The notes below the pieces were generated by a model, which was not told where the DNA came from, searched no databases, and saw nothing but the letters and a program-made list of their open reading frames with translations. DNA of 64,000 nt from Allobosea sp. BK604 (lineage in GTDB: Bacteria; Pseudomonadota; Alphaproteobacteria; Rhizobiales; Beijerinckiaceae): contig NZ_SLZF01000007.1 of assembly GCF_004341515.1 (NCBI RefSeq), forward strand, positions 186,001 to 250,000, read 5' to 3'. The position numbers and the translations under genes were made by a program. Each line of letters begins with the position of its first letter. Position 1 is the first letter of the stretch. Below are positions 302 through 26,696 of this stretch, piece by piece.

Positions 302-454
302 CTTTCCCTCTCCCCCTGCGCCCTGAAGGGGCGGATGAGGGGTCGCGCTGCCCTATCCGGTGATTGGGTCTCCCGCAGCCGACACTGCCATCGTCGCGCG
401 ACCCCTGATCCGTCTCGGCTTCGCCGAGCCACCTTCTCCCGCAAGGGGAGAAGG
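302..454. repeat. Palindromic intergenic repeat, same family as the element inside cobN
   Basis: The gap before scoA holds inverted arms ggatgaggggtcgcgc (333-348) and gcgcgacccctgatcc (396-411), matching at 15 of 16 positions. They are followed by a stretch ending in ccttctcccgcaaggggaga. The same arms and the same core recur at 13565-13710 inside cobN. An open frame runs from this repeat into scoA, but it is repeat sequence and not a scoA N-terminus. Nothing else was recognised between the repeat and scoA. Confidence 0.75.
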
Positions 455-8709: not shown

Positions 8710-9338
8710 TCTTTTTCTTGGGCCAGCGCATTGACGGCTGCGGCCGCCATGGCCGAGCCGCCGCGCCTGCCATGCACCACGAGGAAGGGCACGCGCCCGT
8801 CCCGCGCCAGCGCGTCCTTCGATTCCGCCGCGCCGACGAAGCCGACGGGGATGCCGATCACGGCGGCCGGCTTCGGCGCGCCGGCATCGAGCATTTCCAG
8901 CAGCCGGAACAGCGAGGTCGGCGCGTTGCCGATGACGACGAGCGCACCGGCAAGCCGGGGGCGCCACAACTCCATCGCGGCGGCCGAGCGGGTCAGCCCC
9001 ATCTCCTTCGCGAGCGCCGGCACCTGCGGGTCGTCGAGCGTGCAGAGCACGGCATTGTCCACCGGCAGGCGCGAACGCGTGACGCCATTCGCAACCATTT
9101 TGGCATCGCAGAGGATCGGCGCGCCGGCCTTCAGCGCCGCCTCGGCAGCTGCCGCGAAATCCTCGGACATCGCGACGTCATCCGGCAGGTCGGTCATGCC
9201 GCAGGCATGGATCATGCGGACGACGACGCGCGAGGCCGCGCCGGAAAAGCGCGAGAGATCGGCCTCGGCCCGGATGATGGCGAAGGAGCGCTCATAGATC
9301 GCCGCGCCGTCGCGGATATAGTCGTAACGCTCGCTCAA
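8706..9338 (-). CDS. cobH: Precorrin-8X methylmutase CobH
   Basis: CobH moves the C-11 methyl to C-12, forming hydrogenobyrinic acid. The 210-residue protein starts with YDYIRDGAAIYERSFAIIR. It has the catalytic histidine in RMIHACGMTD (about residue 43) and the conserved VIGNAPTSLFRLLEML. PVGFVGAAESKDAL lies near the C-terminus. Length is normal. It overlaps cobG and cobI by 4 bases each. Confidence 0.95.
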   Translation of the reverse strand: MSERYDYIRDGAAIYERSFAIIRAEADLSRFSGAASRVVVRMIHACGMTDLPDDVAMSEDFAAAAEAALKAGAPILCDAKMVANGVTRSRLPVDNAVLCTLDDPQVPALAKEMGLTRSAAAMELWRPRLAGALVVIGNAPTSLFRLLEMLDAGAPKPAAVIGIPVGFVGAAESKDALARDGRVPFLVVHGRRGGSAMAAAAVNALAQEKE

Positions 9339-10630
9339 ACCTTTGGTCCTGAAGCCCGGCCCGATGTCAGGCGGGTGTGAAAATCCTGTCCCGGCTGCAG
9401 ACGCTGCACAATCTGCGAAAGGTCAAGCCGCCCGGCCGGCTTGTCCCGTGTCGTGCCGCTGAAAACCGCGTCGTAATGACCCTCATGGCCGACTAGGGTG
9501 AGATCGGCCGGGCCGGGATTGGCGCAGGATTTCACGCAGCCGGAGACGTGGAGCTTGAGGCCCGCGGCGAGCAGCGGCGCCGCAGCTTCGGCCAGGGTGG
9601 CGGCATCGCGGCTGGCCCGCGTCTCGCCGCGCAGGCAGGCCGGCGCGCCGGCGCAGGCCTGTACCGAGAGGCGCGGATCCGTGTTTTGGGTGATCAGGCC
9701 GAGTTCGTCCGCGAGGCCGACGAGAGCCTGCGCTTGAATCCAGTCGAGGTCGACGAAGGCAAGGCCGCGCCAGGGCGAGAAGCGGATTGTCGTGCTGCCG
9801 CGCGCTTCGGCGGCTGCGCCGAGTTGCGCCAGCGTCGCCGCATCGGAACGGCCGAATGGCAGGCCGATCAGGACCGCGAAACAGGACGGGCCGAGGCTCG
9901 GAACTCCCGCGCGCTTCGGCGCAGGGCGTCGCGCCGGGGGCTGGGTTTCCGCGAGACCGCACTTGGCGATCATCCCGCTAAGCCCGGCCTCCGGCAGATC
10001 GCGCATGCGGCGGACCGCCGCGAAGGTGGGAAGTCCGGCTGCGAAGCCATGCAGCAACGATGCGACGATGTCGGGAACAGCGGCAGGGGCGGCCGGTCCC
10101 AGCCAGCGGCCACGCGGCGTGCCGATCGCGACTTTGCCGGAACCGATCGCGACGACCCGCAGATCGGCTGCGACATGATCGAGCGAAAGCGTCCCGCCGC
10201 CATCGACGACGATGCAGGTCTTGGCCGGGAGGCCGGGGATCGACCGGCTGCTGGCTTCGATGGCAGCCGCCAGCGCCGCGGCATCGATCAGGTCGCTCGG
10301 ATCGTGTCCGGCGAGCGGTGAAGTCAACGTCAGGCGCTGCGGGCCGTCACCTTCGGCTTCGTCGACCAGCCCTTCGCTCAGAAGCGCTTCGACCAGCGCC
10401 GGATGCGTTTCCGCGGTCACGCCGCGGAGCTGGAGATTGCCGCGCGCGGAAATCTCGACGAGGCCGTTACCGTGCTCCTGCGCCAACTCCGCGATCCGCC
10501 CGAGCTGGCGCGGCGAGAGCGCGTTGCCCGGCGGGTGCAGCCGTACCAGCCAGCCATCGCCGGTCTCCATCGGCCGGAGCGTGCTCGGACACCAGCCGCG
10601 GCGGAGTGCCTCCTTCGGCAGAGCGCTCAT
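9335..10630 (-). CDS. cobG: Precorrin-3B synthase CobG
   Basis: CobG is an oxygen-using mono-oxygenase of the nitrite/sulfite reductase superfamily that makes precorrin-3B. Its presence marks the aerobic cobalamin route. The 431-residue protein has the N-terminal RRGWCPSTLRPMETGDGWLV and SARGNLQLRGV. The 4Fe-4S/sirohaem-type cysteines are in CAGAPACLRGE and VSGCVKSCANPG near the C-terminus. The ATG at 10630 is used because it forms an ATGA overlap with the cobN stop. The longer in-frame start lies inside cobN. Confidence 0.92.
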   Translation of the reverse strand: MSALPKEALRRGWCPSTLRPMETGDGWLVRLHPPGNALSPRQLGRIAELAQEHGNGLVEISARGNLQLRGVTAETHPALVEALLSEGLVDEAEGDGPQRLTLTSPLAGHDPSDLIDAAALAAAIEASSRSIPGLPAKTCIVVDGGGTLSLDHVAADLRVVAIGSGKVAIGTPRGRWLGPAAPAAVPDIVASLLHGFAAGLPTFAAVRRMRDLPEAGLSGMIAKCGLAETQPPARRPAPKRAGVPSLGPSCFAVLIGLPFGRSDAATLAQLGAAAEARGSTTIRFSPWRGLAFVDLDWIQAQALVGLADELGLITQNTDPRLSVQACAGAPACLRGETRASRDAATLAEAAAPLLAAGLKLHVSGCVKSCANPGPADLTLVGHEGHYDAVFSGTTRDKPAGRLDLSQIVQRLQPGQDFHTRLTSGRASGPKV

Positions 10631-13600
10631 TCCGCCGCCTCCCGCCCCTGCAGGAAAGCCGCGACCGAGTTGCGCCGGCTCGTCCAGAAGCCGCGTCGCT
10701 CGGCCTCCGCGAGGCGGGAGCGGATCGAGGCGGCGGCCGGGGCATTGGCGGCTTCGAGCGCGGTCCACACGGTCGGATCGGCGCAATAGGCCTGGAATAC
10801 GGCATCGAACAGGGCCTGCGGCACGGCATCGGTGCTGGCGGCATAGACGAAGAGCGTGTCGACCGTCTCGGCCAGTTCGGCCGCGCCGCGCCAGCCATGC
10901 TTGAGCTGCCCCTCGATCCAGCGGGGATGGCAGATGCGGCCATGGACGATGCGCGAGATGTCCTCGGCGAGCGCGCGCGCTTTCGGCATCTCCGGCTTCG
11001 AGCTGTCGAGGCTGTAGAGCGCCGCCTGCGAGCCGAGGCTTTCAGCGGCTGCCGCGAAGCCGCCGATCACGTCGGCGGCGCTGGACGCTTCGAGGATGTC
11101 GCGGCCGGGTGTGTCGCTGACATGGACGAAGGCGTCGGCTTCGGAAATCCGCTGCGCGAAGCCGGCATCGGCCTGCGCCGTTCCCTCCGGCCCGCCATAG
11201 GCGTGGCTGCTGGCGGCCAGATACGCCTCCGCGAGATCGGCGCGACCTGCCCACTCCCCGTCGAGCGCGCGATCGGCCATGGCTGCGCCGTAGCGGCCGG
11301 GCGCAGCGCCGAAGATGCGGGCACCGGCTTCGCCGCGGCGACGTGCGGCGGATGGCTCGTTCCATTCGTCCGGCTCGTCGAGCGCCGCGACAGCGCGGGC
11401 GGCGGCATCGAGCAGGGCGATCTGGCCTGGAAACGTATCGCGGAAGGCGCCGGAGATGCGGACCGTCACGTCGGCACGGGGCTGGACGAGTTTTGGCTGC
11501 GGGATGATCGCGAAGCCGGTCACCCGCGTCGAGCCATGGTCCCAGAGCGGCTCGACGCCCATCAGCGCCAGCGCATGCGCGATATCCTCGCCGCCCGAGC
11601 GCAGCGTCGGCGAGGCCCAGAGATCCATGACGACGCGGCGGGGGTAATCGCCGTGATCCTGGAGATGGCGCTCGACCACCGCCTTCGCCGCCAGCGCGCC
11701 GAGCCTTGCCGCCGAGCGGGTCGGGATCGCGCGCGGGTCGAGCGTCGAGAGATTGCGGCCGGTCGGCAGCACATCGGCCTGCCCGCGATGTGGCGAGCCG
11801 GCCGGGCCGGGCGGGATGAAGCGGCCGTCGAGGGCACGCAGCAGGTTCCGGCGCTCGCTTTGCGAGGAGGCGGGATCGTGCCCGGCCTGCCCGAAGACGT
11901 GCAGCCCGTCGCGGAAGGGCAGCTCGGCGATGTCGCAGAGATGCGCGTCGAGCGCGGTCAGGGCGCTTGCCATGTCGAGCTCGGGCGCGACGCCGCAGGC
12001 CTGAGCCAGCCCGCTCGCCTCGGCCCGTTCGCGAATCTCGCGCGCGACCAGCTCGGCCCGACGCGGATCGAGCACCTGCGCCTGCGAGAATTCCTCGACG
12101 AGATCACGTAGCAGGCCAACCTCACCGGCCGCCTCCGCCTGCATGATCTGCGGCGGCAGATGGCCGAGCGTCACGGCCGAGAGGCGGCGCTTGGCCGGAG
12201 CGGCCTCGCCGGGATCGTCGACCACATAGGGATAGATCACCGGCAGGCTGCCGATGGCGAGCCGCGGCCAGCAGGCTGCCGAGAGCGCCACCGCCTTGCC
12301 CGGCAGCCACTCGGTCGTGCCATGCGTGCCGAGATGGATCAGCGCATCGATCCCGGCGATCTCGCGCAGGCCGAGATAGAAGGCGAGATAGGCGTGGCCG
12401 GGCGGGCAATCGGGATCGTGATAGCGCGCCTTGCGGTCGGGCGATGCGTCGCGCGGCGGCTGGAGCGCAATGGTCAGCTCGCCGGCGGTGACGGCGCGGA
12501 AGTGGAACGCATGCCCGTCGCAGGCGGGGTCGGCTTCGGGCGCGCCATGGCTGGCGATGAGGGTGTCGCGGGCGGCTTGCGGGATCGTGCCGAGCCAGGC
12601 GCGGTAGGTCGCGAGCGGGGTGGCGAAGGTGGCTGGGCCGCCGGTCAGGGCCTGCATCAGCTTCGAGCCCTCATCCTGCGTCTCGAAGGGCGGTTCAGGG
12701 CGCGCCGACTCGGCTTCCTGCCTCGTCATTGCGAGCGTTGCGAAGCAATCCAGATTCGTAGAGCTCGACGGCCCCTGGATTGCTTCGCTCCGCTCGCAAT
12801 GACGGCCGACATCGTAGCCCGCCTCGGCCAGCAGCTCGCGGATCGCCGCGACGCTCGCCGGCGTGTCGAGCCCGACGGCGAAGCCGGCCCGGCCGCCGCG
12901 CGCCGGGTAGTCGGACATGACGAGCGCCAGCCGGCGCTCGGCGGCGGGCTTGCGCGCCAGCGCGATCCAGCTCGTGGCGAGATCGGCCAATGCCGCGACG
13001 CCCTCCGCATCCGGTACGAGCCGGCGAATGGTCAAGCCGGTCGCTGCATCGCTTTCCTCCGCCTTGAACGCGACGGGGATCGCGCCCAACCGTCCGTCGA
13101 ACTCCGGCAGCGCCACCTGCATCGCGAGATCGACGCCGGAAAGCCCGCGCGGCGAGGCTTCCCAGGCCTCGCGCGGACTGCCGACCGGCACCGCCTGCAG
13201 GATCGGACAATCGGCGGCGTCGAGGACGAAGCCGGCGCCGTCGCGGGACGAGAAGGCGGTCGTGGTAACGATCGCGGCCGGTTTGCGGACGGAGATCAGG
13301 GCCGTGAGCTCGGCTGTGACGATCGGGTCCTTCAGGCTGGTCAGCGCGAGGACGAGCGGGGCAAGGCCACGTGCGGCGAGCGCGTCCGCGATGGCCGCGC
13401 CGAGGGCCGTGTCGCCGGCGCTGACCGCGGAGCGATAGACGAAGACAGGGACGAGCGAGCGAGCTGTGGGGAGGGCCGCAAGGGCGTCCTGCCAGGATCG
13501 GGGCCCGCCCTCGGTGCCAAGCGCGAAGAGTGGGGGCAGATGGACGGGGTGCAAGCGTTGACCGGAAGCGTCGCGCGACCCCTCATCCGTCCCGGCTCCG

Positions 13601-14184
13601 CCGGGCCACCTTCTCCCGCAAGGGGAGAAGGGCGAAGCGGCCGACGTGGTCCTCTTCTCCCCTTGGGGGAGAAGGTGCCGGCAGGTGGATGAGGGGTCGC
13701 GCGACGCTTCCAGGTAATCGTGGATCAGTGCCAGCAACCGCCTCATATTCTCCGCGCCGCCCCCGGCGAGGAAATAGCCCAGCAGCGTCTCGGCGAATTC
13801 CGGCGCAACCGTCCCATATTCCGCCAGCCGCGCATCCGTCCGGTCGTCGCCGGGCAGCACGGCGAGCGCCACGCCCTCGCGGCGGCATGCCTGCGCCAGC
13901 TGCTCGATGCCATAGCGCCAGTAATCGAGCCCGCCCAGGCAGCGCACCAGCACGAAACGGCTGCGCGCGGCGGTCTTCTCGACCAGCAGGTCGACCGAGA
14001 GCGGGTGCTTCAGCCACCGCAGCGAGGCGAGGCGCAGGCTCAGCCCGCCGGCGCCAGCCGCCGCCAGCGCCGAGAGATCGCTGTCCGAGAACGAGAGCAC
14101 CAGCACATCCCCCGGCGGCAGGGCGAGATCGACGGCGTCTTCGCCGTCGTCGAGCCTGATCTCGCTGGAGGGGAGGAGGTGCAT
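10627..14184 (-). CDS. cobN: Cobaltochelatase subunit CobN, with two in-frame palindromic insertions
   Basis: CobN is the large subunit of the ATP-dependent aerobic cobaltochelatase, working with CobS and CobT. The 1185-residue protein has family motifs such as HLGTHGTTEWLPGKAVALS, DALIH, YPYVVDDPGEA and, near the C-terminus, RIVHGRICHPRWIEGQLKHG. Two segments are foreign to the family. Residues about 159-207 are encoded by the palindromic element 13565-13710, and residues about 461-487 by the element 12724-12804. Both keep the frame open. Usual CobN length is around 1,250-1,280, so the native part is slightly short, mainly in the poorly conserved N-terminal third. Function is likely retained, but the effect of the inserts is not known. 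Confidence 0.93.
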   Translation of the reverse strand: MHLLPSSEIRLDDGEDAVDLALPPGDVLVLSFSDSDLSALAAAGAGGLSLRLASLRWLKHPLSVDLLVEKTAARSRFVLVRCLGGLDYWRYGIEQLAQACRREGVALAVLPGDDRTDARLAEYGTVAPEFAETLLGYFLAGGGAENMRRLLALIHDYLEASRDPSSTCRHLLPQGEKRTTSAASPFSPCGRRWPGGAGTDEGSRDASGQRLHPVHLPPLFALGTEGGPRSWQDALAALPTARSLVPVFVYRSAVSAGDTALGAAIADALAARGLAPLVLALTSLKDPIVTAELTALISVRKPAAIVTTTAFSSRDGAGFVLDAADCPILQAVPVGSPREAWEASPRGLSGVDLAMQVALPEFDGRLGAIPVAFKAEESDAATGLTIRRLVPDAEGVAALADLATSWIALARKPAAERRLALVMSDYPARGGRAGFAVGLDTPASVAAIRELLAEAGYDVGRHCERSEAIQGPSSSTNLDCFATLAMTRQEAESARPEPPFETQDEGSKLMQALTGGPATFATPLATYRAWLGTIPQAARDTLIASHGAPEADPACDGHAFHFRAVTAGELTIALQPPRDASPDRKARYHDPDCPPGHAYLAFYLGLREIAGIDALIHLGTHGTTEWLPGKAVALSAACWPRLAIGSLPVIYPYVVDDPGEAAPAKRRLSAVTLGHLPPQIMQAEAAGEVGLLRDLVEEFSQAQVLDPRRAELVAREIRERAEASGLAQACGVAPELDMASALTALDAHLCDIAELPFRDGLHVFGQAGHDPASSQSERRNLLRALDGRFIPPGPAGSPHRGQADVLPTGRNLSTLDPRAIPTRSAARLGALAAKAVVERHLQDHGDYPRRVVMDLWASPTLRSGGEDIAHALALMGVEPLWDHGSTRVTGFAIIPQPKLVQPRADVTVRISGAFRDTFPGQIALLDAAARAVAALDEPDEWNEPSAARRRGEAGARIFGAAPGRYGAAMADRALDGEWAGRADLAEAYLAASSHAYGGPEGTAQADAGFAQRISEADAFVHVSDTPGRDILEASSAADVIGGFAAAAESLGSQAALYSLDSSKPEMPKARALAEDISRIVHGRICHPRWIEGQLKHGWRGAAELAETVDTLFVYAASTDAVPQALFDAVFQAYCADPTVWTALEAANAPAAASIRSRLAEAERRGFWTSRRNSVAAFLQGREAAE
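12724..12804. repeat. Palindromic repeat (CGTCATTGCGAGC family) in frame within cobN
   Basis: Arms at 12724-12753 and 12775-12804 are inverted repeats matching at 28 of 30 positions, starting with cgtcattgcgag and ending with gaagcaatccag. Read on the minus strand, the element gives a peptide containing HCERSEAIQ and DCFATLAMT. Related copies are at 16848-16972 and, as a half-site, at 28654-28673, so it is a dispersed element and not native cobN. Confidence 0.88.
13565..13710. repeat. 146-bp palindromic repeat in frame within cobN
   Basis: Perfect 24-base inverted arms lie at 13565-13588 and 13687-13710 (gaagcgtcgcgcgacccctc and on). The interior contains two more short hairpins built from ccttctcccgcaaggggaga and its partner. 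The same family lies upstream of scoA at about 302-454. On the minus strand it is translated as residues about 159-207 of CobN (for example CRHLLPQGEK and SPFSPCGRRWPG). Confidence 0.9.
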
Positions 14185-16598: not shown

Positions 16599-16651
16599 CG
16601 TCGTCTCCTTGGCCACCCCACCGGCGGCCGATTGGATTGCAGCACTAGGAC

Positions 16652-16805
16652 GGCAGGTCTCCTGGCTCGCGGGTCCCAATCTCGTGCCGCCTTCCCGGTG
16701 TCACCCAGTGGCCGATGGCGCGAAACTCGCCGCTTACAGTTGCGGGGGCAGCCGCGGTATCGCACCGCGTTCCCTTTTCACCTCGTTGCCGAGGCACCGT
16801 CGGGA
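16652..16805 (-). promoter_or_regulatory. Cobalamin (AdoCbl) riboswitch upstream of cbtB
   Basis: On the minus strand the sequence shows the class hallmarks in order. A GGTGCC-containing 5' part is followed by GTGAAAAGGGAACGCGGTG. Next are GCTGCCCCCGCAACTGTAAG, GCCACTGGGTGACACCGG and GAAGGCGGC, and finally GAGCCAGGAGACCTGCC. It lies just before cbtB, so coenzyme B12 would be expected to repress the whole cbtB-to-cobJ operon, probably through translation initiation or a terminator. The off-state structure was not resolved by eye. Confidence 0.95.
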
Positions 16806-16847
16806 TGATCATTAGCCATCTGTGTGGCGCTGTGCAATGCAGTGCGC

Positions 16848-21201: not shown

Positions 21202-21419
21202 GCAGACCAAATCTGCCCGCCGGAAGTTGCCGAAAGGTCACGTGGATGACATTCCGACGGGCTGCGAACGGCCGTCAATTGGCGAACCAGTGACCTTGCG
21301 GCATCATATTCGGTGGACTGGGGAACGGGTCGGTTTGGCGTGTTGATTCGCCGCCGGGGTGAGGTTCGTGCCTTGCCTGTCGTGTCGGGTGCTGGTCCGC
21401 AGGGCGTTTGGGGGCTGGC

Positions 21420-24400
21420 ATGGGTGATCGCGGGCAGTTTGCAGTCGGGCGGCTGATCGCGGCTTCGCGCCTTTCATTTGGTCCGCACCGCTCGCTGCTA
21501 TCGATGCGTACCAGCCTGTTCGCCTTGATGGCGGCGCTCGCGCCCGCCACCGCCGCTCGGGCGGACGGCTTCGCCACGGATACAGCCTCGCTCAACGCGC
21601 AGATCGCCGCGGCCAACGTCTCGGCGAGCGCCTACACGATCACCATCCAGAACGACATCACGCTGACCTCGGCCCTGGCGGCGATCAACAACGCCTCGGG
21701 CGCCACCGTCACCGTCAGGAGCGCCGATGGCAGCGCCTTCACCATCAATGGCGCCAATAGCTTCCAGATCTTCACCGTCAATGGCGGCCTGGCCTCCTTC
21801 GAGAACCTCACGCTCACCAACGGCCTGGCGCGGGGCGGCAACGGGGCGATTGGGCAGGACAACATCGCCGGTGGCGGCGGGGGCGGTGGTGGCCTCGGCG
21901 CGGGTGGCGGACTCTTCGTCGCGGCCGGGGCGAGCGTCGACGTCGCAGGTGTGAGCTTTGCTGATAATCGTGCCGTCGGTGGAAACGGTGGGTCCGCAGC
22001 GTCCTCATCGTCCAGTGTCGGAGGTGACGGCGGTGGCTTGAATGGCGCCGCGGGCGCAGCGGGGGGCGCTGCCAATGGCGGTTCGGGCGCTTCCGGAGGC
22101 TTCGGTGAGGGCGGCGGCGGTAGCGGCGGCAGCACGGTGGGCCTCTCCGGAAACGGGGGAAGCGGCGGCTTTGGTGCCGGCGGTGGCGGCGCGGGTGGAG
22201 GAAGCTCGAACGGAACGCCGGGCCTTGGCGGCACCGGTGGCGGAAACGGAGGCGCTGCCGGAGTAGGACTATATGGCGGCGGCGGCGGTGGCGGCGCCGG
22301 CTTCGGCGGTGCGCTCTTCGTCGATCAGGGTGGCTCGCTCACGCTGCGCGACACGGGAATCGTCTCGAGTGATTTTGCCAATGCTGTCGCAGGTGGTGCA
22401 GGCGGGGCTGAGCTTGGCACGATTGCCGGTGCTCAACCGGGTTCTGCCGGCTCGGCCGCGGGGCAGGCGCTCTATCTGCGCGGGACAACCGCGACCATTT
22501 CCGTCGACGCGGCGGCGTCGCCGTCCGGCCGGACCTATGCCGGCACGATCAGCGGCGATGGCGGCCTCATCAAGCAGGGCAGCGGCCTGCTCGCGCTGAC
22601 CGCGGCCAACAGCTTCACCGGCGACTTCACCCTCGACGGCGGCACCGTCAGCGCCGGCCATGCTTCTGCTCTCGGCGGCGGAACATTCATTGCGAGGAGC
22701 GGCACGCTCGACATCCAGAACGGCATCACGCTCGGCAACGCCGCCAGTCTCGAAGGCAATATCGCCATCAACGTGGCATCGAGCGCGTCGGGCAGCTATG
22801 CCGGCGTGATCGGAGAAAGTGGCGGGGCTTTCGGGATCGCCAAGACGGGCGCGGGCACCTTGACGCTCACCGCCGCCAATACCTTCACCGGCGACTTCAC
22901 CCTCGATGGCGGCACCGTTCGCGCAGAGAATGACAGCGCGCTCGGCGGCGGCCTGCTGCTGGTCAAGAACGGCACGCTCGACATCGCGCCTGCCGTCAGC
23001 ATCGGCAACACCGCCGTCCTGGAGAACAACTTCACCATCAATGTGGGGCCCGGCCCGGCGGCCACCTATAGCGGCGACATCCTGGAAAGCACCGGCTCGT
23101 TCGGCGTCACCAAGACGGGCGACGGCACGCTCGCGCTGAGGGGAGCCAACAACTATTCGGGCGCCACCATCGTCAATGGCGGCACGCTGCTGATCCAGTC
23201 CGACGGCGCCCTGCCCAACGCCAGCGACGTCACGGTGAATGCCGGCGCCACGCTCCAGATCGAGGACGGCTTCGTCGAGCCCTGGATCGGCTCGCTGGCC
23301 GGCGCCGGCAACGTCGTCATCGGCTCCGACTCGACCCTGACGATCGGCTTCAATCCTGTTGCCACTGTCTTTTCCGGCTCGATCACGGGCAATGGCTCGC
23401 TCGCGATGGAAGGCCCGGGCCAGCTCAAGCTGACCGGCACAAGCGCCATCGGAGGCGCACTGATCATGTGCGGCAGCTGCGCCAGCGCGCTGCTCGAGAT
23501 CAGTGGCGGCTCGCTGAGTGTCGGCGACCCCCTCAGCTTCAGCGGTGGCGGCGTACTGATCGGCGGCGGCACCTTGCGCGTGAGCAATGGCGGAACGCTG
23601 ACTCTGGTGAGTCCGGGTGACGTTCTCTCCGTCCAGTCCAAGCTCGAGGTCACGGGCGCCGGCTCCAGCGTCACGGTGGAAGGCCTGACCCAGATCGGTG
23701 GCCCCGACCCGACGACCATGGCGATCAGCGCCGGCGGCGTCGTGAACAGCAGATCCGGCGTCATGCTGGAGGGGCTCTTCAACAACGCCATTGTGACGGT
23801 GGACGGCGCCGGCTCGACCTGGAATGTCGATAACGTCCTGTTCGTCGGAGGTTTTATCGGCGTCGGTACCGGAACGGTCGTCGTTTCCGCGGGCGGCATC
23901 GTCAATTCCACGGGTTTCGTAGAGATCGGCTCGGATCCCGATCCCCTGCTCGGCCTCGCCACCGCGAGCGTCACGGTGACCGGGGCCGGCTCGATCCTGA
24001 ACGCCGATAACGGACTCACCGTCGGCCATCCCGGCTGCGGCTGCGGCAGCGCCGACTATGCCGGCATTCTGACCATCGCCGATGGCGGCGCAGTCAATGC
24101 CGCTGCGGGTATGGAGATCGGCGTCGCCGGCACGCTCAATCTCGGCATAGGCGGGCTTGCCGGTTCTCTGGTCACGCCGACGCTCAGCAATGATGGCCGC
24201 ATCGTTGCCGATTTCACCGACAGCGCGACGCTTGCCGCCGATATCAGCGGTAGCGGCACGCTGACCAAGCAGGGTTCCGGCACGCTCGTCCTGACCGGCA
24301 ACAACAGCTATACCGGCACGACTTTCCTCAACGGCGGCAGCCTCAGCATTTCCTCGAACGCCAATCTCGGCGACATCTCGAGCACGCTTGCCATGAACGG

Positions 24401-26696
24401 CGGCATCCTGCGCGTCACCGGCACGGGGCTCGCCTCGCTCGGCACGCGCGCCTTCAGCTTCGGCGGGTCCGGCGGTGGCTTCGATATCGCTGAGGCCGCC
24501 AACAGCTTCACGGTCGCGCAGCCGCTCTCGGGGGCCGGCTCGCTTGAAAAGCTCGGCGCTGGCACGTTGCTGCTGACGGGCGCGAATTCCTACACGGGCG
24601 CAACCCATGTCGCTGGCGGCACCTTGCAGGCCGGCGCGGCCGGCGCCTTCTCGGCCGGCTCCGCCTTCACGGTCGATGCCGGGGCGCGCCTCGTCCTCGC
24701 CGGGCTCGACCAGAGCGTCGGCTCGCTTGCAGGCGCCGGCTCCGTCGATCTCGGCACTGCCCGGCTGAACACCGGCGGCAATGGCGCCTCGACCCTGTTC
24801 TCGGGCGTCATCTCCGGCACCGGCTCGCTGGTCAAGGAGGGGGCGGGCACGCTGACGCTCACGGGTCCCAACGCCTATACGGGCGGCACCACGATCAGCG
24901 GCGGCACGCTCATCGGCAATACGACGAGCCTCCAAGGCGCGATCCTGAACAACGCTGCCCTGGTCTTCGATCAGGCCACGGCGGGAACCTTCGCCGGCGC
25001 CATCTCCGGCACAGGCGCGCTGACCAAGCAGGGCGCGGGCGCGCTGAACCTCACCGGCACGAGCACGATGAGCGGCCCGACCATGGTGACGGGCGGGTTG
25101 CTCTCGGTGAACGGCTCGCTGGCCAATTCGGTGGTGACGCTGAACGGCGGCACGCTCGGTGGCAATGGCACGGTCGGCGGCATCAATGTGCTGAATGGCA
25201 TGGTCGCGCCGGGCAATTCGATCGGAACGGTCAACGTTGCCGGCAATGTGAGCTTCGCTGCCGGCACAACCTATCAGGTCGAGCTCGATGGGACCGGCGC
25301 CAGCGACCGGATCGTCGCGACGGGCACGGCCACGCTCAGTGGTGGCCAGGTCCAGGTGCTGGCTGCGACCGGCAGCTATGCGCAATCGACCAGTTACAGC
25401 ATCCTGACGGCGCAGGGCGGGATCAGCGGCCAATTTGCGAGCGCCACGTCCGATCTCGCCTTCCTGACACCGTCGCTCAGCTACGGCCCCACGGCCGTCG
25501 TGCTGACGATGATGCGCAACGACACCGATTTCGGGCCGCAGCCGGGACCGCGCGCCTTCGTCGCCGCGACCCGGAATCAGGCCGGCGTCGCCAATGCCGC
25601 GCAAGCGCTTGGCAGCGGCAACCGCGTCTATGAGGCCCTGCTGGGAACCACGGCCGATCAGGCCCGTGCCGGCTTCGACCTGCTCTCCGGCGAGGTGCAT
25701 GCGCAGGCCGTCTCGGTCGCGATCGAGAACAGCCATCTCATCCGCGACTCGATCCTCAACCGGCTGCGTGCGCCCTATGGCAGCACGGCGGCCGGCGGCA
25801 GCGTCTCCGGCGGATTCACCGCCGATCTGCCCGGCCGCAAGTCGGTCACGGTCATGCCGGCCCCGGCTTTCGACACGCGCCGCTTCACGCTCTGGGGCGA
25901 GGCCATCGGTGCGCAGGGCTCGGTCGACCGCGATGGCAATGCCGCCTCGCTCAGCTATCGCGGCGGCGGCATGCTGTTCGGCGCCGAGCTGGAGCAGGGG
26001 CAATGGCGGCTCGGCGCCGCCGGCGGCTATACCAACACCGATTTCGATGTCGATGCGCGCCGGTCGAATGGCGAACTGTCGAGCTTCCACGGTGCGCTCT
26101 ATGGCGGCGCCCGCCTCGGCGCCTTTGCGTTGCGGGCCGGTGCCGCCTATTCGTGGAACGATGTCGACGTGAAGCGCAGCGTCGCCTTCCCCGGCTTCTC
26201 CGATTACCTGAAGCTCGACGGCCGCAGCGCCACGGCCCAGGCCTTTGCCGAGATCGGCTACGGGCTGACGCTCGGCCAGGTCGCACTCGAGCCCTTCGCC
26301 CAGATCGCCGCAGTCAATATCCGCAGCGAGCGCGAGGCCGAGCAGGGCGGCGCGGCCGCGCTCACGGTGCTCGGCCGCGACCAGACGCTGGGTTTCACCA
26401 CGCTCGGCCTGCGTGGCGAGATGCAGTTCGGCTCCCTGCCCTTGGTGGCGCGCGGCATGCTCGGCTGGCGCTATGCGTTCGGCGACATCACCCCGACGGC
26501 AGATCTGGCCTTCGTCGCCGGCGGCCTGCCGTTCCAGACCTATGCCGCGCCGGTTGCGCGCAACACGCTCGTGGCCGAGGCGGGCCTGGCCTGGAAATTG
26601 TCGGGTTCGACGACGCTGGGTATCAGCTACGGCGCGGCGGTCAGCGACAAGGCCCGTAACCAGGCGGTCAAGGGCCGGATCGACATCGCGTTCTGA
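21420..26696 (+). CDS. Large autotransporter (type Va secreted protein) with PATR-repeat passenger
   Basis: The 1758-residue protein has an export signal, a long beta-helical passenger and a C-terminal outer-membrane barrel. A Gly-rich zone spans residues about 150-300. Autotransporter-associated strand repeats follow (for example GTLTLTAANTFTGDFTLDGG and GSGTLVLTGNNSYTGTT), recurring many times up to about residue 1260. The barrel runs from about residue 1485 (RFTLWGEAIG) to the terminal phenylalanine in DIAF. ATG 21420 is taken because GGGGG lies about 6 bases upstream. ATG 21504 would give a standard signal peptide (MRTSLFALMAALAPATAARA) but has no visible ribosome-binding site. Function of the passenger (adhesion or surface interaction) is a guess, as no protease triad was seen. 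Confidence 0.92.
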   Translation: MGDRGQFAVGRLIAASRLSFGPHRSLLSMRTSLFALMAALAPATAARADGFATDTASLNAQIAAANVSASAYTITIQNDITLTSALAAINNASGATVTVRSADGSAFTINGANSFQIFTVNGGLASFENLTLTNGLARGGNGAIGQDNIAGGGGGGGGLGAGGGLFVAAGASVDVAGVSFADNRAVGGNGGSAASSSSSVGGDGGGLNGAAGAAGGAANGGSGASGGFGEGGGGSGGSTVGLSGNGGSGGFGAGGGGAGGGSSNGTPGLGGTGGGNGGAAGVGLYGGGGGGGAGFGGALFVDQGGSLTLRDTGIVSSDFANAVAGGAGGAELGTIAGAQPGSAGSAAGQALYLRGTTATISVDAAASPSGRTYAGTISGDGGLIKQGSGLLALTAANSFTGDFTLDGGTVSAGHASALGGGTFIARSGTLDIQNGITLGNAASLEGNIAINVASSASGSYAGVIGESGGAFGIAKTGAGTLTLTAANTFTGDFTLDGGTVRAENDSALGGGLLLVKNGTLDIAPAVSIGNTAVLENNFTINVGPGPAATYSGDILESTGSFGVTKTGDGTLALRGANNYSGATIVNGGTLLIQSDGALPNASDVTVNAGATLQIEDGFVEPWIGSLAGAGNVVIGSDSTLTIGFNPVATVFSGSITGNGSLAMEGPGQLKLTGTSAIGGALIMCGSCASALLEISGGSLSVGDPLSFSGGGVLIGGGTLRVSNGGTLTLVSPGDVLSVQSKLEVTGAGSSVTVEGLTQIGGPDPTTMAISAGGVVNSRSGVMLEGLFNNAIVTVDGAGSTWNVDNVLFVGGFIGVGTGTVVVSAGGIVNSTGFVEIGSDPDPLLGLATASVTVTGAGSILNADNGLTVGHPGCGCGSADYAGILTIADGGAVNAAAGMEIGVAGTLNLGIGGLAGSLVTPTLSNDGRIVADFTDSATLAADISGSGTLTKQGSGTLVLTGNNSYTGTTFLNGGSLSISSNANLGDISSTLAMNGGILRVTGTGLASLGTRAFSFGGSGGGFDIAEAANSFTVAQPLSGAGSLEKLGAGTLLLTGANSYTGATHVAGGTLQAGAAGAFSAGSAFTVDAGARLVLAGLDQSVGSLAGAGSVDLGTARLNTGGNGASTLFSGVISGTGSLVKEGAGTLTLTGPNAYTGGTTISGGTLIGNTTSLQGAILNNAALVFDQATAGTFAGAISGTGALTKQGAGALNLTGTSTMSGPTMVTGGLLSVNGSLANSVVTLNGGTLGGNGTVGGINVLNGMVAPGNSIGTVNVAGNVSFAAGTTYQVELDGTGASDRIVATGTATLSGGQVQVLAATGSYAQSTSYSILTAQGGISGQFASATSDLAFLTPSLSYGPTAVVLTMMRNDTDFGPQPGPRAFVAATRNQAGVANAAQALGSGNRVYEALLGTTADQARAGFDLLSGEVHAQAVSVAIENSHLIRDSILNRLRAPYGSTAAGGSVSGGFTADLPGRKSVTVMPAPAFDTRRFTLWGEAIGAQGSVDRDGNAASLSYRGGGMLFGAELEQGQWRLGAAGGYTNTDFDVDARRSNGELSSFHGALYGGARLGAFALRAGAAYSWNDVDVKRSVAFPGFSDYLKLDGRSATAQAFAEIGYGLTLGQVALEPFAQIAAVNIRSEREAEQGGAAALTVLGRDQTLGFTTLGLRGEMQFGSLPLVARGMLGWRYAFGDITPTADLAFVAGGLPFQTYAAPVARNTLVAEAGLAWKLSGSTTLGISYGAAVSDKARNQAVKGRIDIAF

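Follow-up and report, generated by a model that had tools for sequence, protein, structure and literature searches.

Palindromic repeats translated within protein genes are known from Rickettsia, in which dispersed palindromes of about 100–150 bp, the Rickettsia palindromic elements (RPEs), lie both between genes and in frame in conserved genes that stay open (PMC2229807). RPE-6 and RPE-4 are CGTC repeats (PMC3733652), and the CGTC families are described as mainly alphaproteobacterial, predominantly arranged in head-to-head pairs and mostly intergenic, being found sometimes inside open reading frames (ORFs) (Di Nocera 2013, PMC3733652). The same paper records intragenic repetitive extragenic palindromic (REP) sequences of the GTAG and CGTC families in several genera and finds that recB carries different REPs at roughly the same position in two Xanthomonas (PMC3733652); in addition, protein-recoding intragenic inversions are known (PMC11868660). 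We describe here a stretch of 64,000 nucleotides from Allobosea sp. BK604 (contig NZ_SLZF01000007.1, positions 186,001 to 250,000), referred to as the window, in which cobN, the gene for a cobaltochelatase subunit, carries two palindromic elements in frame, assigned to families A and B.

Comparison with the cobN genes of relatives suggests that elements have entered, left and probably turned over in the same few loops of the protein many times, with the gene kept readable throughout. Like the RPEs, the elements are dispersed, multi-copy palindromes, found between genes and in frame in a conserved, intact gene; in contrast to the RPEs, the in-frame copies found lie in one enzyme gene (and in cobG of relatives) rather than in many genes, and several families share the same loops, with evidence for inversion in place. 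Bosea, moreover, is a free-living genus. Family B resembles the CGTC REPs in starting with CGTC, but this case differs from the intragenic REPs in that 41 distinct cobN genes of one group have three recurrent sites, and in that family A is a longer unit of two hairpins. Intragenic invertons, reportedly described by Chanin et al. (2024, Nature) as inverted repeats within a gene whose inversion recodes the protein, are matched here by inverted repeats inside the cobN ORF with both orientations open; in this case, however, the segment is itself a repeat in a disordered loop, and is known from comparison between species alone. No paper on palindromic insertions in cobN was among the top matches listed from the openly licensed literature. 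Protein-coding palindromes are known as a kind, whereas the recurrent use of the same loops by several families, together with the inferred flips, appears to be new.

Palindromic elements of the window and their genomic copies

All coordinates are window positions, and searches of the organism's own genome covered 7.63 Mb. The features on which the argument turns are as follows.

10627..14184, minus strand: cobN, cobaltochelatase subunit, 1185 aa, intact, single copy
13564..13711, minus strand: palindromic element of family A, in frame, CobN residues ~159–207 (site 163)
13687..13711, minus strand: outer arm of element A, 5' in gene sense, 25 nt, 100% complementary to its partner
13564..13588, minus strand: outer arm of element A, 3' in gene sense, 25 nt, 100% complementary to its partner
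13654..13677, minus strand: inner hairpin unit (CTTCTCC..GGAGAAG), 5' in gene sense, one of an inverted pair
13607..13630, minus strand: inner hairpin unit, 3' in gene sense, the other of the inverted pair
13631..13653, minus strand: spacer between the inner hairpins, 23 nt
12724..12804, minus strand: palindromic repeat of family B, CGTCATTGCGAG.., peptide RHCERSEAIQ.., in frame (site 462)
392..454, plus strand: half-unit of family A upstream of scoA, with an opposed half just upstream

The cobN ORF has no internal stop over its 1185 aa and scores 1419.8 bits as a CobN equivalog in NCBIfam, where the cut-off is 1235; among named cobN genes, the closest found is that of Bosea caraganae, at 80% in the best segment. 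A protein search of the own genome found no second cobN, the other matches being weak, short and mostly repeat copies, and the possibility that cobN is a pseudogene with a functional second copy elsewhere, named in a first-pass annotation made from the sequence, was rejected. That annotation had placed a 146-bp repeat with 24-bp arms at 13565–13710; the palindrome stands, although not its exact size, the arms being 25 nt long and the element extending over 13564–13711. Its position in frame over residues ~159–207 was borne out, as were the second in-frame palindrome in the same gene, of a family unrelated to A, and the existence of a sibling upstream of scoA. This half-unit probably lies upstream of the true start of scoA (TIGR02429), because the domain begins only at residue 74 of the 360–1286 ORF. 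The inner arms of element A are 96% complementary. As single-stranded RNA, the whole element has a folding energy of −122.2 kcal/mol, whereas shuffled sequences average −70.85 (z −13.4) and none of 200 reached its value.

Both families are dispersed: A occupies at least 44 genomic places and B at least 42; these are lower bounds, from 40 of 88 and 40 of 183 first-look candidates scored, and a few of the 44 are two halves of one pair. The family A unit consists of two small hairpins and an outer GTCGCGCGAC stretch, and many units are arranged as inverted pairs. The CGTC-tagged REPs are defined by a stem of 8–9 bp, a loop of 4–5 nt, a CCA tail and the CGTC tag; by inspection, many family A units have CGTC at one end, with two hairpins per unit and no clear CCA tail, and family B has the tag, with which its arm at 12724–12753 opens. 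A search for a transposase of the REP-associated Y1 tyrosine type (RAYT; PF01797) gave no match in the own genome, compared with matches in 5 of 14 control genomes.

Families A and B are mostly intergenic and are not preferentially in frame in genes. Copies that were in frame and open, with coding flanks, numbered 1 of 44 places for A and 1 of 42 (39 testable) for B, and both are the cobN copies themselves; at one other A place, L155, the coding flanks share a frame, but the element contains a stop. The frame caller used placed 693 of 700 test positions correctly, the test genes being also in its training set. The alternative offered by the first-pass annotation, that the repeats have evolved to stay readable, was rejected: the cobN copy of A is open in four of six frames (two of three in gene sense) against 4.23 in dinucleotide shuffles, and 23 long genomic copies have a mean of 2.39 open frames against 2.78 shuffled. 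The repeats are therefore not visibly shaped for readability, because their openness matches their composition and the frame in which they are read is not the same in all cobN genes, two being in use.

Insertion sites in CobN of related species

From 110 fetched cobN loci with a long open frame, duplicates included, we defined a Bosea group of 41 distinct genes by the criterion that the locus ORF and the query have 430 or more four-letter words in common; the group includes records titled Rhizobiales or Beijerinckiaceae. Identical proteins were collapsed, the truncated L039 was left out and the query duplicate of L089 was removed from the 41-gene count, the clustering showing 42 rows or a similar number; L039, L118 and L020 are absent from some state counts. 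In these 41 proteins, insertions of 12 aa or more occur after residues 45 (nine genes), 163 (22 genes) and 462 (34 genes), with none elsewhere in cobN, and 37 of the 41 genes have at least one loop insert. At E ≤ 0.01, 20 of the 22 inserts at site 163 and 32 of the 34 at site 462 match DNA outside cobN. In an AlphaFold2 model of the window's CobN (mean pLDDT, the predicted confidence score, 77.4), the two longest stretches with a pLDDT below 50, 165–209 and 462–502, are its two filled sites; the best match of the model among solved structures is M. tuberculosis CobN 7c6o (TM-score 0.71). The first-pass proposal that the region tolerates insertion thus gains support, in the form of three particular sites.

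The three sites differ in what fills them. All 17 longer inserts at site 163 cluster as family A; those at site 45 comprise one cluster of eight and one insert of another cluster; and those at site 462 fall into three or more clusters, including one that unites two peptide types and is found in other genera too. At site 462 close relatives often carry different families (L026 and L102; L014 and L015), and the fewest changes required on a tree of the cobN core are 20 for this site, 10 for presence at site 163 and seven for site 45, on a quick tree of 1018 core columns with 12 open forks and with states labelled by eye. Some empty sites resemble in-frame deletion scars, e.g. in L110, L027 and L116, as judged by eye. 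Among 67 genomes of the genus, cobN is split over contigs in a few, and several have only distant CobN relatives or none.

Two observations on other insertions in CobN may be added. At site 163 of L010 and L034, the A hairpins themselves enclose a second, in-frame sequence (peptide like PISGLPEMGNPECQSRQQPTLM), twice in L010 and once in L034. Beyond the Bosea group other loops are filled, one after residue ~225 in Microvirga and Chelatococcus (L038–L048; seven rows) and one after residue ~567 in Methylobacterium (loci among L047–L088; 18 rows); several of these inserts are repeat-like.

Control genes were clean or nearly so. The cobW, cobH and cobI genes of the same loci had no inserts (n = 27 each), and full-length MetH matches measured 3555 or 3558 bp in 63 of 63 genomes, with no insert; DnaE was longer in two of 64 full-length matches (G056 and G057, by ~45 and ~96 bp). 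Genomes without a single full-length match, four of 67 for MetH (G049, G036, G045 and G032) and three of 67 for DnaE (G032, G045 and G065), were left out. A loop of the neighbouring cobG is filled in some relatives, with an insert after residue 107 in four of 27 loci (L021, L022, L023 and L046), three of these matching three different palindromic element types. L019 has an insert near the start of cobG, and L021, L023 and L027 have inserts at the start of cobJ that may precede the true start (in the cobJ comparison L025 is a wrong ORF). In the flanks of other species' cobN, five of 34 element places (two untestable) were in frame and open; three of them are the cobG cases and the other two lie in L118 and L046.

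The window has cobW, cobG, cobH, cobI and cobJ among the neighbours of cobN, with two further features of relevance.

9335..10786, minus strand: cobG ORF, coding for precorrin-3B synthase, with the domain starting at residue 62; its loop is empty in the window and filled in some relatives
16635–16816, minus strand: cobalamin riboswitch upstream of the cob genes, 132.1 bits, bases 1–30000 searched

Downstream of cobN in L010 and L034, the cobG ORF has an extra C-terminal sequence resembling cobH, as if fused. Elsewhere in the window, a long ORF at 21408–26696 (plus strand) has matches to an autotransporter beta-barrel and to repeats.

Orientation and origin of the site 163 element

In the A pair of cobN the inner hairpins face each other, tail-to-tail, across 23 bp in 13 of 14 cases, and across 20 bp in one, found with the wider pattern. 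When the spacer was allowed to vary over 20–27 bp, the 67 genomes gave 61 forward matches, 20 in cobN (19 with a 23-bp spacer and one with 20) and 41 elsewhere. Of the 30 match loci fetched, 10 had the double hairpin, each of them a cobN, and none of the 19 inspected loci outside cobN had it; the remaining fetched locus is a cobN (G006) that the strict pattern missed. Sixteen other double hairpins in the DNA analysed are 85–118 bp apart.

The spacers are alike between species, and the 19 of them agree best when some are reverse-complemented, with a statistic of 581 compared with a null maximum of 372 in 300 shuffles and a mean best identity of 13.3/23 compared with a shuffle maximum of 9.94; these label-free tests are stronger than the labelled one discussed below, but select the best-fitting orientation for real and shuffled spacers alike. 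The two halves of the element can be told apart by their second hairpin, short or long, and by eye the order is short–long in six species and long–short in eight. L011 and L105, sisters at 99% support, have opposite orders, and the variant CCTGCCGGGAC, common to L011 and to L026/L031 of one clade, lies in opposite halves. Half order changes five times on the tree, no fewer than with shuffled labels (mean 4.85). When each element was inverted in silico, its reading frame stayed open every time (15 of 15 and 14 of 14). Because no inspected locus other than cobN showed the architecture with the 23-bp spacer, and because the spacers are similar in mixed orientation, the site 163 element appears to descend from a single old insertion that was probably inverted where it stands.

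We favour, with a probability of about 0.7, the explanation that element A is a translated palindromic repeat that inserted early into a disordered loop and was inherited, trimmed and probably inverted, in a protein whose loops tolerate inserts. An inverted pair of hairpin units of the dispersed family A would have entered the loop in frame early in the Bosea lineage, and would then have been inherited with cobN and trimmed or lost through frame-preserving deletions. It was probably inverted in place through its own inverted arms, an event that could not shift the frame and would leave it open. Sites 462 and 45 and one CobG loop would have taken other palindromic families, site 462 repeatedly; frame-breaking copies would be removed, whereas loops that tolerate extra residues would keep their inserts, with no need for a benefit to the host. 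The inserts, which we infer to be translated, are most likely neutral or nearly neutral passengers, although, with the loops so often occupied, the elements may genuinely prefer to insert there or may serve some purpose. Only tentatively would we go further and propose a naturally invertible, translated CobN cassette that would flip so often that its orientation lacks phylogenetic signal and would give an otherwise constant enzyme two loop sequences, with particular loops of two cobalamin enzymes as preferred landing and retention sites for several unrelated families, filled above the level of nearby intergenic gaps.

Several observations weigh against this explanation. Four of the 56 inserts at the two main sites have no match outside cobN (L024 and L029 at site 163, L028 and L106 at site 462), and the cobN match of one of the 67 genomes (G032) contains TAG. 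With hairpin order as a preset label the spacer test is weak, 16 of 252 label sets being as good; spacer and hairpin orientation disagree in two of ten elements (L012 and L097); and the window's own spacer is ambiguous, with 12 matches in one orientation and 11 in the other. The evidence for inversion consists of orientation differences between species only. The inspected matches to the spacer pattern outside cobN are 19 of 41 only. In L019 and L021 element A is read in the other open frame, as would follow from paired indels or from a second insertion event. All 19 of 19 element lengths preserve the frame, but this is circular since open genes were compared. Finally, tolerance alone may not suffice, because site 462 is filled more often (34 of 41) than the intergenic gaps near cobN, of which 26 of 142 hold an element, a rough count in which masking cobN hid cobG from the caller.

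Alternative explanations and wider meaning

Some of these observations would be expected if a mobile subfamily had inserted at site 163 independently and more recently in each species, its copies lying either way round and in either open frame, with the site acting as a hot spot. The two reading frames fit such a history, as do the variation between species in the module types of the halves and the evident insertion of different families at site 462 and in cobG, and 22 of the 41 pattern matches outside cobN fall beyond the inspected set. However, independent copies do not readily account for a tail-to-tail, 23-bp-spacer architecture found only in cobN when other double hairpins are so much farther apart, for the lack of hairpins in every inspected match outside cobN, or for the likeness of the spacers between species, and no other repeat family clustered at site 163. 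We consider this history unlikely.

We think it somewhat less probable still that the palindromes are kept for a function, either in the mRNA, where the hairpin would slow ribosomes, offer a cleavage site to RNase III or tune the cob operon, or as a loop peptide that adjusts CobN. The hairpin is very stable, occupancy is high, two neighbouring enzymes of one pathway are affected and, across 15 site 163 elements, changes on both sides that preserve pairing occur at eight of 38 predicted pairs. Such covariation may, however, stem from subfamily diversity, and in family C both-side change was negligible (one of 35 pairs); in addition, orthologous sites are empty or apparently scarred in many species, and families of unrelated sequence replace one another at site 462.

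That two common repeats fell by chance into one otherwise unremarkable gene, as might be supposed from the dozens of dispersed copies of both families and from the frequent openness of GC-rich repeats in several frames, can be dismissed, since the comparison across the genus contradicts it, with inserts in nearly all Bosea-group cobN genes, always at the same three sites, and control genes clean or nearly so.

Under the explanation that we favour, of an old, inherited and probably inverting insert in a tolerant loop, translated palindromes, so far described in Rickettsia and in isolated REP examples, can now be studied in a genus in which one gene can be traced through dozens of species, so that gain, replacement, nested insertion, apparent inversion and loss can be followed at fixed codon positions of cobN. 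The conversion of selfish hairpin DNA into protein thereby becomes open to testing, as does the question of whether loops attract insertions or simply outlast them, and the case points to natural sites of insertion tolerance in cobaltochelatase.

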